Shown: positions 1-54,591 of the stretch, one piece after another
Position numbering within the stretch: the stretch's first letter is position 1
Layout: every line of letters begins with the position of its first letter
Assembly (NCBI RefSeq): GCF_003383095.1
Contig: NZ_PSYW01000006.1
Span: 1 to 54,591 of the forward strand
Direction: 5' to 3'
Length of the DNA: 54,591 nt
Source: Haloferax sp. Atlit-12N
GTDB taxonomy: Archaea; Halobacteriota; Halobacteria; Halobacteriales; Haloferacaceae
Made by a program: the position numbers and the translations under genes
The notes under the pieces: model-generated
What the model saw: only the letters and a program-made list of their open reading frames with translations
Told to the model about the DNA's origin: nothing
The model's database searches: none

Positions 1-127
1 CCCGACCACCCAGCGTGTGAGTGGATCCAACAGCAGGTCCCGCCCGAGGGCCTCCCATATCACAAACTGGTCGACCTGATGCAAGAGGCCAAACGCCGGT
101 TCGTCAAGGACCCACCGTCGTCGACGC
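1..127. repeat. Terminal direct overlap, left copy
   Basis: These 127 bases are repeated without a mismatch at the right end (54465-54591). The reading frame of the gene that runs off the right end continues correctly through this copy to a stop at 172-174, so the ends join into a circle or a permuted concatemer. The exact length of 127 matches the largest k-mer of common short-read assemblers, so this is most likely an assembly overlap. A packaged terminal repeat is less likely but not excluded. Confidence 0.95.
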
Positions 128-10643: not shown

Positions 10644-11564
10644 ATGAGCGCCGGCGCTGGGAGCAGCACCGTCGCGTTCACGCCCGAACCGTCGTTCGGG
10701 GGCGACCCGGACACGGGGACGGCGACGTTCTACCTCCCGTTCAAGAACCCGACCGTCGGAGAAGCATCGCTATCGAATGAACTGCGCCGCCTTCGCGACC
10801 CTGACTCGGCCGTGAGCGTCGGCTCGCTCGCCCAGAACTTCGAGGGCGCGCTCAGCATCTCGGGAGAACTCTCGACGAACGACTGGCATCAGCTCGTGTT
10901 CAACAACGACTCGAACACCGGCTGGGAGCCTGGTCGCATGCCCTCGTCTCGCTGGTATCTCGGCGTCGATTACCTTGACGGCGCGGGGACTGGCACGACC
11001 GAGCGTGAGCTGGCAATGTGCATCGTCACGAACGCCCAGATCACCTATCAGCAGGGCGGGGCCGTCACCCTCGACCTGACGATGATCTACGGCGACGAGC
11101 CGGATCTTTCGACGAGCATCACGCCGTCGAACGTCCAGAAACCCACCGACAGCGACGTCGTCGCCTTCCACGGCTTCGATGTCCAGGTCGACGGTGCGAC
11201 CGTCTCGAAGCTCCAGAACGCGACGCTTCAGCTCTCGCCGAACGCCCGCTTCCATCGTGGCGCGGACCGACACCCAGTCGCCGCTGTCATCGGAGACGTC
11301 ACGCCGACGCTCTCGACGACGGCCATCTACTCCGGGCCGGAAGCTGTCGAGCGCGCGTACGGTGCAGCGGCCGCAACGACGCCTGCTGACCGTCTCGACT
11401 CGGTTAGCGGGGCCGTCACGACGACGAACGGTTCGGGGACGACCACGACGTACAATCTGACTGGACTCGTCCCGCAGTCGTACAACTGGCAGGACCTCAT
11501 CGCCGCCGACAGCGACCTCACAGAACCCGTGACCTACAACGTCGACGACGTCACGGTGGCCTAA
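10644..11564 (+). CDS. Major tail tube protein
   Basis: 306 aa, beta-rich with many Thr/Ser/Gly, placed just before the frameshifting chaperone pair, which is where the tail tube gene always lies in long-tailed viruses. The internal region (NAQITYQQGGAVTLDLTMIY) looks like the long tube strands. A good ribosome binding site (GGAGGTGA) lies a few bases upstream of ATG 10644. No sheath gene is seen, so the tail is predicted to be non-contractile. Confidence 0.8.
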   Translation: MSAGAGSSTVAFTPEPSFGGDPDTGTATFYLPFKNPTVGEASLSNELRRLRDPDSAVSVGSLAQNFEGALSISGELSTNDWHQLVFNNDSNTGWEPGRMPSSRWYLGVDYLDGAGTGTTERELAMCIVTNAQITYQQGGAVTLDLTMIYGDEPDLSTSITPSNVQKPTDSDVVAFHGFDVQVDGATVSKLQNATLQLSPNARFHRGADRHPVAAVIGDVTPTLSTTAIYSGPEAVERAYGAAAATTPADRLDSVSGAVTTTNGSGTTTTYNLTGLVPQSYNWQDLIAADSDLTEPVTYNVDDVTVA

Positions 11565-11566
11565 TC

Positions 11567-12118
11567 ATGCCGCTTCGAACACAACGCTACGACCTCACCG
11601 ACGAAATCGAACGGATCGACGACGAACTGGCCGACCTCAAAGCGACAAAGCAAGATCTCATCGACGCCGATGAGGACAAGCGAGACGCCATCGGCCAGGT
11701 CAACCAACGAATCACGACGCTCGAAGCCGAACAGCGTGGCGCTCGATGGGCGCGTGACGAAGCCCACCTGCCACCGAGTGAGGGTGGCGTCGACGTCTGG
11801 GATCACTCTGTCGACAGCCTCGAGTTCGCCGCTCTCTCTGCAGGCGACATTGCAGAGGTCTTCAGCGAAATCACGAACCGAACCCAGCGCGTCGTCGAAA
11901 TCCACATGGTCGCCCAGGGGACCGTCGACGCACCGTATCACGACAGCGATGCATCGTACGGCGACCGCGTCGAGACGGTCGGGGGCGGTCTTCCGGCCGC
12001 GTTCGTCAAGTTCGCGTACAACCACGTCAACAGTCTCTCGACGGTGGGAAATCCCGCCGGGACCGCCTCCAAGCGTTCGCCCGAGGAGACGCGGTCCCAG
12101 ACGCCGACGAGCAACTGA
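11567..12118 (+). CDS. Tail assembly chaperone G
   Basis: 183 aa. The N-terminal coiled coil (residues 8-60, DEIERIDDELADLKATKQDL) precedes a globular part. The gene lies between tail tube and tape measure and its 3' part overlaps a second frame entered through a -1 slip site (12046-12052). This is the arrangement of lambda G/GT, whose products coat the tape measure during tail assembly. Without frameshift the protein ends at TGA 12116-12118 with a polar, basic tail. Confidence 0.85.
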   Translation: MPLRTQRYDLTDEIERIDDELADLKATKQDLIDADEDKRDAIGQVNQRITTLEAEQRGARWARDEAHLPPSEGGVDVWDHSVDSLEFAALSAGDIAEVFSEITNRTQRVVEIHMVAQGTVDAPYHDSDASYGDRVETVGGGLPAAFVKFAYNHVNSLSTVGNPAGTASKRSPEETRSQTPTSN

Positions 12119-12249
12119 CAGCTGACTATTTCGTCGGCCTCGCGATGGCGCACGGCCACCCGCCAGAACAAGCTCGCAACTACTCGATGCGCGACCTCGA
12201 ACTGATGCAGATCGTCTCCAACAATACTGGAGGGCTCCTTAATGGCTGA
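11567..12249 (+). CDS. Tail assembly chaperone GT, made by -1 frameshift
   Basis: Shifting -1 at GGGAAAT (12046-12052) joins the G frame to a downstream frame that stops at TGA 12247-12249, giving about 227 aa. The T part encodes well-formed halophile protein, for example DEQLTADYFVGLAMAHGH and RDLELMQIV, and has no start codon of its own with a ribosome site. Its last codons overlap the tape measure ATG (12242). In lambda the T domain recruits the tube protein to G-coated tape measure; the same role is inferred here. The T part is too short and startless for ordinary gene calling. Confidence 0.8.
12046..12052 (+). promoter_or_regulatory. Programmed -1 frameshift slip site GGGAAAT
   Basis: In the G frame the codons read GTG GGA AAT, so the heptamer is G GGA AAT, a perfect X XXY YYZ slip site in the correct phase. 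After a one-base backward slip the codons become GGG AAA and reading continues in the T frame. Lambda uses GGGAAAG at the equivalent place. Confidence 0.8.
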
Positions 12250-13387
12250 AGACCAACAGTTCGGCGCAGGCGCAACCCTCGCCGTCGACGTCGATCGCGC
12301 AAGCCTTCGGCACACCCGCGACGTCATCCAGGACACGGTCGGCGACCTCGATGTCACCGTCCGACCAGGTGGCGCGTCGGCAGCCCGTGTCGACGGCGGG
12401 GGCGTTGGTGGAGGCGACCTCTCGTTGTCCGCGGCCGTCGACGCAGTCGATCGCCACGGCGAAATGCGCTCGAAGGAGGCAGCGCTCGGCCGGCAACTCG
12501 CCGCTGAACAGCTCGAAGTCCAGCGCCACATCTGGGAGACCGTTGGGGACATCGCTGAGACGATGGACGACGGCGGCCTCATTGGAGGCGCTGTCGGTGA
12601 CCTCCTTGTCGAGGCCGGCGGCGGCGCTGCGGGCGAAACCGCTGGTGCGGTCGCGAGTGAGATCCCCGACACGATTGGCGACATCCTCGGAACCGCGGCC
12701 GGGGAGGTTCTCGGGAAGGCAGTCAGCGACCTCTTACCGACTGGCGGGTCGTCGGTCTCGATCACGAAGCCGGAGTGGGTCCCGCTTGACGTCGCCCGGC
12801 CGTCGTGGGAGGTCGGCGTCGACACGCCGAGTGATCTCGACGTGCGCGAACCAGACTGGGCGCCACTCGCCGTTCAAGAGCCCGAGTTTGCGGTCGGTGT
12901 CGACCGTCCCGACTGGAAAGTCGGTGTGGATGACCCCTCGCCGCTGCGTGTCGAGACGCCGGTACTCGAGGTCGAAGATGTTCCACCCCTTGAAGTCGAC
13001 ATGAGCCTCTCTGTCGCAGGTGGTGGCGGCGGCGGTGCAAAAAGCACGGGTGAATGGTTCCGTGACAACGTTGAAGCACCACTTCTGGGTGACGGTTTCG
13101 CCGAGTCCGAGCGAAAGGCCTCCAACTATTTGCTCAGGAGGATCGGCGTAACTCCAACAGACATCACTCCTGTCGGCCAACCATCACAGGGATCCCGGTC
13201 GAAAAGCTCTGCAAGCGCTTCAACGACCATCGACTACGGCCCGACGTACAACATCAACCTCGATACCGATCGCATCATTCGAGAAATAAAACAAGCACAC
13301 CGAAAGGACGTCAACAATATCGAGTCGCGCCTCGACAGCGTCGAATCAGATGTCGATTCGCTCCAGCGGGCTCTACGTGGTCGGTGA
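12242..13387 (+). CDS. Tape measure protein (short)
   Basis: 381 aa directly after the G/GT pair, where the tail length ruler lies. Residues 60-165 are helical with Gly/Ala-rich hydrophobic segments (GLIGGAVGDLL, EIPDTIGDILGTAAGEVLG) typical of tape measures. Residues 176-252 are a beta repeat region based on P.W.V.V..P. The last 40 residues form a coiled coil (ESRLDSVESDVDSLQRAL). At roughly 0.15 nm per residue, the family rule, the tail would be only about 57 nm; this is an inference. Confidence 0.8.
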   Translation: MAEDQQFGAGATLAVDVDRASLRHTRDVIQDTVGDLDVTVRPGGASAARVDGGGVGGGDLSLSAAVDAVDRHGEMRSKEAALGRQLAAEQLEVQRHIWETVGDIAETMDDGGLIGGAVGDLLVEAGGGAAGETAGAVASEIPDTIGDILGTAAGEVLGKAVSDLLPTGGSSVSITKPEWVPLDVARPSWEVGVDTPSDLDVREPDWAPLAVQEPEFAVGVDRPDWKVGVDDPSPLRVETPVLEVEDVPPLEVDMSLSVAGGGGGGAKSTGEWFRDNVEAPLLGDGFAESERKASNYLLRRIGVTPTDITPVGQPSQGSRSKSSASASTTIDYGPTYNINLDTDRIIREIKQAHRKDVNNIESRLDSVESDVDSLQRALRGR

Positions 13388-13606
13388 CTATTCACGAACC
13401 ACTAACACGTATTTCCCTTCGATGTACTTCTTAAACAACTTCTTAGCCAAGACGAACACGATTGGGAGTGCGATTATAGCGAGAGCGAGCACAACCAGGT
13501 TCTGGAAGTAGGCGAAGATGACGCCGGCGAGCACGATACCCAACGCGAAGACGGCCACGACTTTCACGGCCGATTTCGCCAGACGAGTCCAGTCAGTCCC
13601 TGACAT
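13388..13606 (-). CDS. Small two-TM membrane protein, antisense in tail module
   Basis: 72 aa with two hydrophobic spans (AVKVVAVFALGIVLAGVIFAY and LVVLALAIIALPIVFVLA, residues about 13-33 and 37-54) and a basic cytoplasmic-type stretch KKLFKKY. It is the only leftward gene inside the structural block and its stop abuts the tape measure stop. An AT-rich stretch (13607-13640) upstream could hold its promoter. Could be a holin or superinfection-exclusion protein; not determinable from sequence. Confidence 0.65.
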   Translation of the reverse strand: MSGTDWTRLAKSAVKVVAVFALGIVLAGVIFAYFQNLVVLALAIIALPIVFVLAKKLFKKYIEGKYVLVVRE

Positions 13607-27413: not shown

Positions 27414-27797
27414 CTACTCTTCAGTCGAATATTCGCGTTCGAGGTCCGCGAGCGCGGAGTGGACGTCGTCGGGATCCATCTCTGAAACGGCGTCAAGGCC
27501 GTGTTCAATCACGAGCGGCTTCAGATGGCGGTCTTTCAGGAACTCAAAGTCGCACTCGTAGGTGAGCCGCTGGTACTCCGTGTCGAGACGGTCCTTCATC
27601 GCGTCAGGTAAGTAGAACGTCATTCCGTTCCACGCGCTCTTGACACGCTCTGCGTCCCATGGATTCCGTACGTGCACGTCATTCTCTGCGTTCATTGCGT
27701 TCTCTTCACTCGGTGCGTCGTCGCTCTCGTCCTGGTCGTTGCCGGCGTCGCCACCAAGGCGTCGACTCAGGCGGTTGTTGATCTCGTCTTCACTCAT
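27414..27797 (-). CDS. Small acidic partner of ParA, ParB-like role
   Basis: 127 aa. An acidic disordered N-terminal half is followed by a conserved-looking C-terminal domain (WDAERVKSAWNGMTFYLPDAMKD...DFEFLKDRHLKPLVI). I associate that pattern with the small DNA-binding partners downstream of ParA on haloarchaeal plasmids. Its ATG overlaps the ParA stop, so the two are translationally coupled. It probably binds the centromere. Confidence 0.65.
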   Translation of the reverse strand: MSEDEINNRLSRRLGGDAGNDQDESDDAPSEENAMNAENDVHVRNPWDAERVKSAWNGMTFYLPDAMKDRLDTEYQRLTYECDFEFLKDRHLKPLVIEHGLDAVSEMDPDDVHSALADLEREYSTEE

Positions 27798-28561
27798 TGG
27801 TCGATTTCCTCCGCGATAGCCGCGTAGACGTCGGTCATATCCGTGTCCTCTGCTTCGTCACCGAATATCGAGCAGTGAGCGTTGACCGTGCGCTCGATGG
27901 CGGCGCGGTGGCGGACAACCCACACGGGGACACGACCCTCAAAGCGCTCCTCGTACCATTCCAGCATCCGCTTTTGCTCGTTGTCGAGTGGGTAGTGCAC
28001 GTCGGAGACGACAACGCCAGAGATAGCGACATTCGTCCCGTAGTTTTCGTCGAGCGTGTCGAGCTGCCGCAGCAAGTGCTGGACAGCGAGCTTCGACGAC
28101 TCGTCAGCGCGGACGGGGACGAGCAAGTTCTCGGTCGCGAGGACGACATTGTCGTTGATCGGACCGAGCGACGGTGGGGCGTCGAAGATGATCACGTCCC
28201 AGTCGTCGACGTCCTCGAACAGCATCTGCAGGCGCTGCCGGGGGCGCATCCCACTCGCGATGAGGTCCTGCTCGAGCGCGAACATATCGATGTTCCCCGG
28301 GAGAACGTCAAACTCATCGTGAGCGACGACGAGGTCGCGGACGTCGTAGTCATTCGGGCTCGCGAAGGCGTTGTAGAACGTCGGCGGGTCGGCCGTGTAC
28401 TCGTCTTCGAAGCCGAGGCGATGCGTGAGGTAGCCCTGTGGATCGGCGTCGACGGCGAGGACGTCGAGGCCACGATCTGCGAGCGCGCCCGTGATGTTGA
28501 TCGTGTTCGTCGTCTTCGCGACGCCGCCTTTCTGGTTCGTCACACCTATTCGAATTGTCAT
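27794..28561 (-). CDS. ParA-family partition ATPase
   Basis: 255 aa from ATG 28561; an in-frame TTG 12 codons upstream is less likely. Deviant Walker A KGGVAKTT (residues 11-18), the DADPQG motif (about 38-43) and Walker B VIIFDAPPSLG are all present. ParA ATPases move plasmid or provirus copies to daughter cells. The gene heads a two-gene operon with its acidic partner and has repeated CATGCAC sites just upstream, which suggests autoregulation. No integrase is seen, so it implies a plasmid-like provirus state. Confidence 0.92.
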   Translation of the reverse strand: MTIRIGVTNQKGGVAKTTNTINITGALADRGLDVLAVDADPQGYLTHRLGFEDEYTADPPTFYNAFASPNDYDVRDLVVAHDEFDVLPGNIDMFALEQDLIASGMRPRQRLQMLFEDVDDWDVIIFDAPPSLGPINDNVVLATENLLVPVRADESSKLAVQHLLRQLDTLDENYGTNVAISGVVVSDVHYPLDNEQKRMLEWYEERFEGRVPVWVVRHRAAIERTVNAHCSIFGDEAEDTDMTDVYAAIAEEIDQ

Positions 28562-28744
28562 TGCATGCTCGTCATGCACGTCGTTCCATGCACTCAAATA
28601 ACCACGTCAGACGCGGAAAACGCCGATAAATACGCGTACGCGCGCTAATACGTGCGAACAACATATTGCGGTGAGTCCAAATCGGGGCCATTTTTACGTG
28701 GAACCACGTGGTAGATATCGGCGCAAGTGCGCCAGGCGGACCTA
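28562..28744. promoter_or_regulatory. parA upstream region with repeated CATGCAC and palindromes
   Basis: Just upstream of parA are GCATGC (28563-28568) and two direct CATGCAC copies (28573-28579, 28587-28593). A minus-strand TATA (TATTTATC, 28625-28632), the palindrome CGCGTACGCG (28633-28642) and the hairpin ACGTGG-AA-CCACGT (28696-28709) follow. These fit an operator or centromere and perhaps an origin region. Confidence 0.5.
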
Positions 28745-54023: not shown

Positions 54024-54591
54024 ATGACGCCGCTTGCCTTCCACATCGCCGCTCGCCTCGTCAGCGACGGCTCCGAGACAGCGGCCGACCAGAAGGCACG
54101 GTTCGGGCGCTACGTCAACGAGCAACCGGAGTTCGCACGGTCGCAGTACATGCCCGACCTCGTCCGAGACAACATCGTCGACGTCGTCCGCCTCGAGTTC
54201 GCGCTGTCGCCGCCGGCGACCCCTGACGACCACGACCCTATCCGCAAGCGCGACTACCGGGACTTCTGGCTCGACGCCGTCGGGAGTGAGCCGTGGGACA
54301 TCTACTCAATCGCCGAGGACATGGCCGCCCGATTCGACCTCAACCCCGGCTGGGCGTTCAAGACGGCGCGCCAGCACCTCAACCAGCTCGTCCTTCAGGC
54401 GCGGATGCGCGGCTATCGCGAACAGCCGCTGGCCGGCCGTCGCTTCCGCTGGGGTGGCCCCGAACCCGACCACCCAGCGTGTGAGTGGATCCAACAGCAG
54501 GTCCCGCCCGAGGGCCTCCCATATCACAAACTGGTCGACCTGATGCAAGAGGCCAAACGCCGGTTCGTCAAGGACCCACCGTCGTCGACGC
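54024..54591 (+). CDS. Probable Mu-F/SPP1-gp7-like head morphogenesis protein, N-terminal part
   Basis: Starts at ATG 54024, five bases after the HAD stop, and runs off the right end; it continues at base 1 and stops at 174. The N-terminal 150 residues are helical (RDFWLDAVGSEPWDIYSIAE, WAFKTARQHLNQLVLQARMR) as expected for a head morphogenesis protein. The C-terminal Cys/His motif is described under the left part. Confidence 0.5.
   Translation, partial: MTPLAFHIAARLVSDGSETAADQKARFGRYVNEQPEFARSQYMPDLVRDNIVDVVRLEFALSPPATPDDHDPIRKRDYRDFWLDAVGSEPWDIYSIAEDMAARFDLNPGWAFKTARQHLNQLVLQARMRGYREQPLAGRRFRWGGPEPDHPACEWIQQQVPPEGLPYHKLVDLMQEAKRRFVKDPPSST
54465..54591. repeat. Terminal direct overlap, right copy
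   Basis: Exact copy of bases 1-127. Removing one copy gives a 54,464-bp circle with continuous reading frames. Confidence 0.95.

Follow-up and report, generated by a model that had tools for sequence, protein, structure and literature searches.

A programmed -1 ribosomal frameshift very probably yields two tail assembly chaperones from one start in the haloarchaeal virus or provirus sequence described here. The sequence examined, referred to below as the window, was the entire contig C6 (54,591 bases) of a Haloferax-like genome. Its gene G contains a slip heptamer beyond which a second reading frame, T, continues in -1. As nearly all members of a set of 51 related loci retain such a heptamer, the site encoding the two chaperone forms is, judged from sequence comparison, almost certainly real.

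Slip site and reading frames

The G gene occupies positions 11567..12118 of the + strand and encodes 183 amino acids, 162 of them through the slip codons. The heptamer G GGA AAT at 12046..12052 (+ strand) had been reported in a preliminary description as standing in exact X XXY YYZ phase with the G frame, and the G codons read at this place, GTG GGA AAT CCC, agree with that report. GGGAAA[CT] was found once on the + strand of the window. In the -1 frame, the T extension (12052..12249, + strand) runs for 65 codons (12052-12246) up to the stop codon TGA at 12247-12249, in keeping with the earlier estimate of about 65 codons. This stop overlaps the ATG at 12242 of the next gene, so that T does end inside the start of the putative tape measure gene, as had been proposed. 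The predicted GT fusion comprises 227 amino acids, with a G-to-T junction reading STVGN-SRRDR, and the peptides predicted from T in the source strain include DLELMQIVSNNTGGLLNG.

A TGA at 11779 precedes the T frame, which then stays open from 11782 through 12246; no ATG, GTG or TTG codon was found in this frame between 11779 and the heptamer. The preliminary statement that T has no start of its own holds for the full T segment and has to be narrowed for a truncated T, for which three in-frame ATGs (12145, 12187, and 12205) are available. The GC content by codon position was 0.71/0.41/0.74 in G up to the heptamer and 0.72/0.43/0.71 in T read in its own frame, while the G-frame tail past the heptamer gave 0.50/0.77/0.95. 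The G-like pattern in the T frame and its alteration in the G-frame tail indicate that the coding frame switches at the heptamer.

Conservation of the slip site among related loci

The first search recovered four diverged cellular homologues (G033, G025, G092, and G090) and one viral contig (L014), all with an in-phase GGGAAAC or GGGAAAT and with T in -1. The comparative set comprised 51 distinct loci from haloarchaeal genomes and viral contigs, including the window, and grouping at 55% identity gave 23 lineages. Among the same-genus relatives are Haloferax mucosum and H. elongans, with contigs L015 and L016 matching L005 and L006. T lies in -1 relative to G in all 51 loci, and a canonical in-phase heptamer stands at the junction in 50 of them (GGGAAAC in 47, GGGAAAT in two, namely the window and L014, which is closely related to it, and AAAAAAC in L058). 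In 37 G genes including that of the window (6469 codon positions), an in-phase GGGAAAY occurred 36 times, and never outside the junction, whereas codon frequencies predict about 0.007 occurrences per overlap; chance does not account for the pattern.

Relatives that lack the slip site and give T its own start, which the preliminary description had named as a counterexample, were sought, and the only locus without an X XXY YYZ site, L099, still has T in -1. In several relatives the T frame contains no start codon whatever. At the homologous place (about 1980-2038), this locus reads GAT TTT CGG, a possible single-tRNA slip site for tRNA-Phe on U_UUU.

Three further loci have junctions of unusual form. 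L040 carries two slip sites in series at 1980-1992, GGGAAAGGGAAAC, both in phase, and its GGGAAAC stands within this sequence. In L101 (minus strand; 2010-2022 of the reverse complement), GGGAAAC is followed by one codon and then by the G stop, an arrangement that resembles HCTV-2. L038 (G316:C7 18618-18889) matches the C-terminal part of G (query 129-164) a further time and has T displaced by 90 bases, which suggests that the end of G was partly duplicated in tandem with phase and slip site retained.

Comparison of the window with its three closest relatives gave dN/dS values of 0.10-0.28 for the T-only part in the -1 frame and of about 0.7-3.9, where defined, in the other two frames. T evolves as a protein in the -1 frame only.

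The conservation data also bear on three other explanations of the frame break. T could be a separate gene, translated by internal initiation (for example at ATG 12145) or by reinitiation past the G stop, with the heptamer being incidental. The three ATGs inside T would permit this, but according to the alignment a start at 12145 leaves out the N-terminal half of the conserved T domain; L008, L020, L028, L037, L038, and L043 have no T-frame start codon upstream of or near the G stop, and the heptamer is retained in 50 of 51 loci. We regard a separate gene as very unlikely. Slippage of the polymerase on GGGAAA during transcription is somewhat less likely again. On general reasoning, a -1/+2 product would be expected from the same site by this route as well, but the runs here are just three bases long, whereas known transcriptional slippage occurs on far longer runs, and the exact codon phase of the heptamer is conserved, which is needed for ribosomal and not for transcriptional slippage. 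The least probable explanation of all is that mutation in a decaying provirus, or a sequencing error, broke a gene that had been continuous. The contig was assembled as part of a cellular genome and could be a resident provirus, but this explanation is refuted by the identical position of the break in 51 distinct loci of 23 lineages and by the purifying selection on T. Programmed ribosomal frameshifting thus remains the reading that best fits the comparative data.

Identity of the G and T proteins

The AlphaFold model of G had a pLDDT of 94, and that of the T domain, with a pLDDT of 89.5, was all helical with four helices. In the Foldseek comparison, the G model matched the HCTV-1 tail assembly chaperone R4TML7 with an E value of 2.8e-4, a probability of 1.00 and a TM score of 0.56. 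The G family profile likewise matched the HCTV-1 chaperone (hhalign E 4.2e-6; HMMER 1e-7 for one sequence), and the alignment takes in the 'NSFNTVG' motif before the slip site. Together with the two-piece coding sequence of HCTV-1 and its GGGAAAC, the fold and profile matches identify G/GT, by prediction, as an HCTV-1-type pair of tail assembly chaperones. The only family matching all members of the set is phrog_19457 (E 6.6e-72 for G), which is listed with unknown function and thereby gains a likely one, that of a tail assembly chaperone.

The Pfam chaperone families gave no match to the G/T family, and similarity to bacterial chaperone families of the kind that would point to descent shared with lambda gpG/gpGT was found in neither Pfam nor PHROGs. 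Fold matches of G to phage chaperones were weak, fold searches of the PDB with G and with T returned nothing significant, and tblastn searches of the phage collection gave no match to the window G, to the capsid protein or to two relatives. The lambda G/GT logic put forward in the preliminary description stands as regards the -1 frameshift; the closest relation is to the HCTV-1 chaperone, and no sequence kinship with lambda G/T was found.

Contig and tail module

An exact direct repeat of 127 bases is present at both contig ends (window 1-127 and 54465-54591), as expected in a circular assembly. Thus, the molecule is probably circular with 54,464 bp, and the contig probably represents an extrachromosomal virus or a plasmid-like provirus. 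Among its genes is one for a ParA-type ATPase (27794-28597, minus strand; AAA_31, E 1e-33).

The window contains a tailed-virus structural module of standard type, in which the large terminase (phrog_38, E 2e-54), the portal (phrog_18178) and the tail tube gene are followed by G, T, and a gene of 381 amino acids. The tail tube protein is encoded directly 5′ of G at 10644..11564 on the + strand (Pfam Phage_tube_2, E 1e-13, 51.9 bits against a cut-off of 27; phrog_18409 'minor tail protein', E 5e-151). The 381-amino-acid gene (12242..13387, + strand), whose start overlaps the T stop, is a tape measure candidate by virtue of its position. Homologous genes with a common N-terminus, mostly of about 330-460 amino acids, come after T in many relatives, and the family matches the HCTV-2 tape measure in place and size (435 amino acids there); tape-measure profiles had no significant match to the product. 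G/GT is placed between the tail tube and the tape measure candidate, as expected of a tail assembly chaperone pair.

In some proviruses (L023, L024, L025, L035, L036, L037, L038, and L063), an unrelated gene stands just after T in the place of the tape measure candidate, encoding a lipoprotein-like product (MNRRHYLA...LLAGC) or a membrane protein. In the window, an ORF of 72 amino acids with hydrophobic stretches lies on the minus strand at 13388-13606, flanked by the tape measure candidate and the gene that follows it. Encoded on the opposite strand within the tail module, it is possibly a small membrane protein.

Candidate stimulatory elements

A candidate stimulatory hairpin, absent from the preliminary description, was predicted at 12059..12098 (+ strand), separated from the heptamer by a spacer of six bases (12053..12058, + strand). 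In this fold, GGGACCGCCTCC (12059-12070) pairs with GGAG (12085-12088) and GCGGTCCC (12091-12098), leaving a 2-base bulge at 12089-12090, and the region 12053-12105 had a folding z score of -2.4. The six-base spacing resembles that of textbook frameshift signals. Perfect stems of at least 8 bp located 5-9 bases past the heptamer occurred in 3-4 of the 23 lineages versus 0.2 expected, with a peak at that spacing and a chance P of about 6e-4 to 0.02.

In the four sequences of the Haloferax clade, the stem arms are nearly invariant and the loop is variable; the stem differs only in L005, where one terminal pair is lost, and no covariation or compensatory change was found in it. The hairpin overlap codes in two frames, and part of the stem follows from the protein motif LQxxARGDAVP, so that its invariance could reflect coding constraint. 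On balance, the chances that the hairpin stimulates slippage in this virus appear about even.

A downstream structure common to the whole family was considered and rejected, since the folding energies of the 60 nt past the heptamer were near background (mean z -0.53); 4 of 37 loci fell in the lowest 5% of downstream folding energies, and most lineages have no such stem. An SD-like stimulator about 10 bases upstream of the window heptamer is absent, the energy there being -1.6 kcal/mol, no better than about 97% of gene positions. Across the family, the energies were only weakly shifted (mean -6.6 vs -5.4 kcal/mol), and an SD-like stimulator for the family as a whole was rejected; strong SD-like sequences were present in some distant relatives, such as L008, L049, and L035. 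An Rfam search of window 11500-12400 returned nothing.

Proposed mechanism

According to the proposed mechanism, most ribosomes would stay in frame and produce G, whereas a minority would slip back by one base, with tRNA-Gly(UCC) re-pairing from GGA to GGG and tRNA-Asn(GUU) from AAT to AAA, and continue into T to give the GT fusion. Both the slippage and its rate are inferred. Slippage in this virus and in those nearest to it may be made more efficient by the stem-loop that begins after the six-base spacer. If the lambda model applies, the tape measure protein would be coated by G, and the tail tube protein encoded just upstream would be recruited by GT, in which case the frequency of slippage would set the G:GT ratio.

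The host genome contains tRNA-Gly(UCC), tRNA-Asn(GUU), tRNA-Lys(UUU), and tRNA-Lys(CUU). All canonical sites in the family have AAC or AAT as the A-site codon, and L040 has an additional AAG site. AAG is the shifty codon of E. coli (PMC5009743), and it is a reasonable inference that this codon would be of little benefit where the host has tRNA-Lys(CUU); the GGGAAAG of HCTV-5 shows that the avoidance of AAG is not absolute. A broader and rather doubtful idea is that the tailed viruses of haloarchaea have an ancient frameshift signal in common, in which the slip codon is restricted to the Asn codons AAC/AAT, as in eukaryotic viruses and unlike the AAG favoured in E. coli, perhaps because the host tRNA-Lys(CUU) would pair poorly after moving from AAG to AAA. 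Some lineages would have added a stem-loop, which would mean that an mRNA obstacle of this kind acts on archaeal ribosomes as it does on those of bacteria and eukaryotes.

Little documentation exists for frameshifting in archaea: a 2021 review names one reported case, the Saccharolobus fucosidase gene, and repeats the predictions for a few haloviruses (PMC8211752). In the family described here, one slip site exists in 50 natural versions, and the hosts are relatives of Haloferax volcanii, which is genetically tractable, making archaeal ribosome slippage, and the role of downstream stems, straightforward to test. The kind of finding is itself ordinary; its value lies in how large and uniform the set of compared loci is, and in the test system offered.

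Comparison with known systems

A 2016 review considered -1 frameshifting likely for HVTV-1, HCTV-1, HCTV-2, and HCTV-5, and +1 frameshifting for HSTV-2, and listed the sites GGGAAAC for HCTV-1, AAAAAAC for HCTV-2 and GGGAAAG for HCTV-5 (PMC5009743). In HF1-like viruses, the shift would have to be +1 (PMC7230728). No experimental demonstration that an archaeal virus uses G/GT frameshifting was found in the literature searched, which was mostly without subscription papers. Since the arrangement and even the heptamer have been published for other haloarchaeal viruses, the window case is not the first of its type but a further example of the -1 chaperone frameshift described in them.

The heptamer of lambda ends in G, and its slip codon is read by tRNA-Lys, in contrast to the Asn codons AAT/AAC found here. 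Lambda gpG/gpGT is otherwise alike in logic, in gene order and in having a GGGAAA- heptamer of the form X XXY YYZ, and slippage sets its G/GT ratio (PMC5009743).

Among the haloviruses, HCTV-2 (HCTV2_40/41, KC292028) shares the succession of tail tube, two-piece chaperone coding sequence and a tape measure of similar length (435 amino acids), but its G and T have no sequence relation to the window family, and its AAAAAAC stands directly before the G stop. Hardycor1 (HrrHc1_110/115) has the identical G GGA AAT in the corresponding position, where the first chaperone gene ends, upstream of the tape measure (PMC7911831); the likeness lies in the published heptamer and its position, and the tape measure there has 703 amino acids versus 381 here. 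The HCTV-1 chaperone (DNAM5_122/123, KC292029) differs in its low identity of about 14-19%, in a T part without significant profile match, in the two genes between GT and tape measure, and in a heptamer that ends in C where that of the window ends in T. It agrees with the window in its position in the tail module, in a two-piece coding sequence annotated in GenBank as a frameshift product, in a GGGAAAC verified to be in phase with T in -1, and in remote homology by profile and fold.
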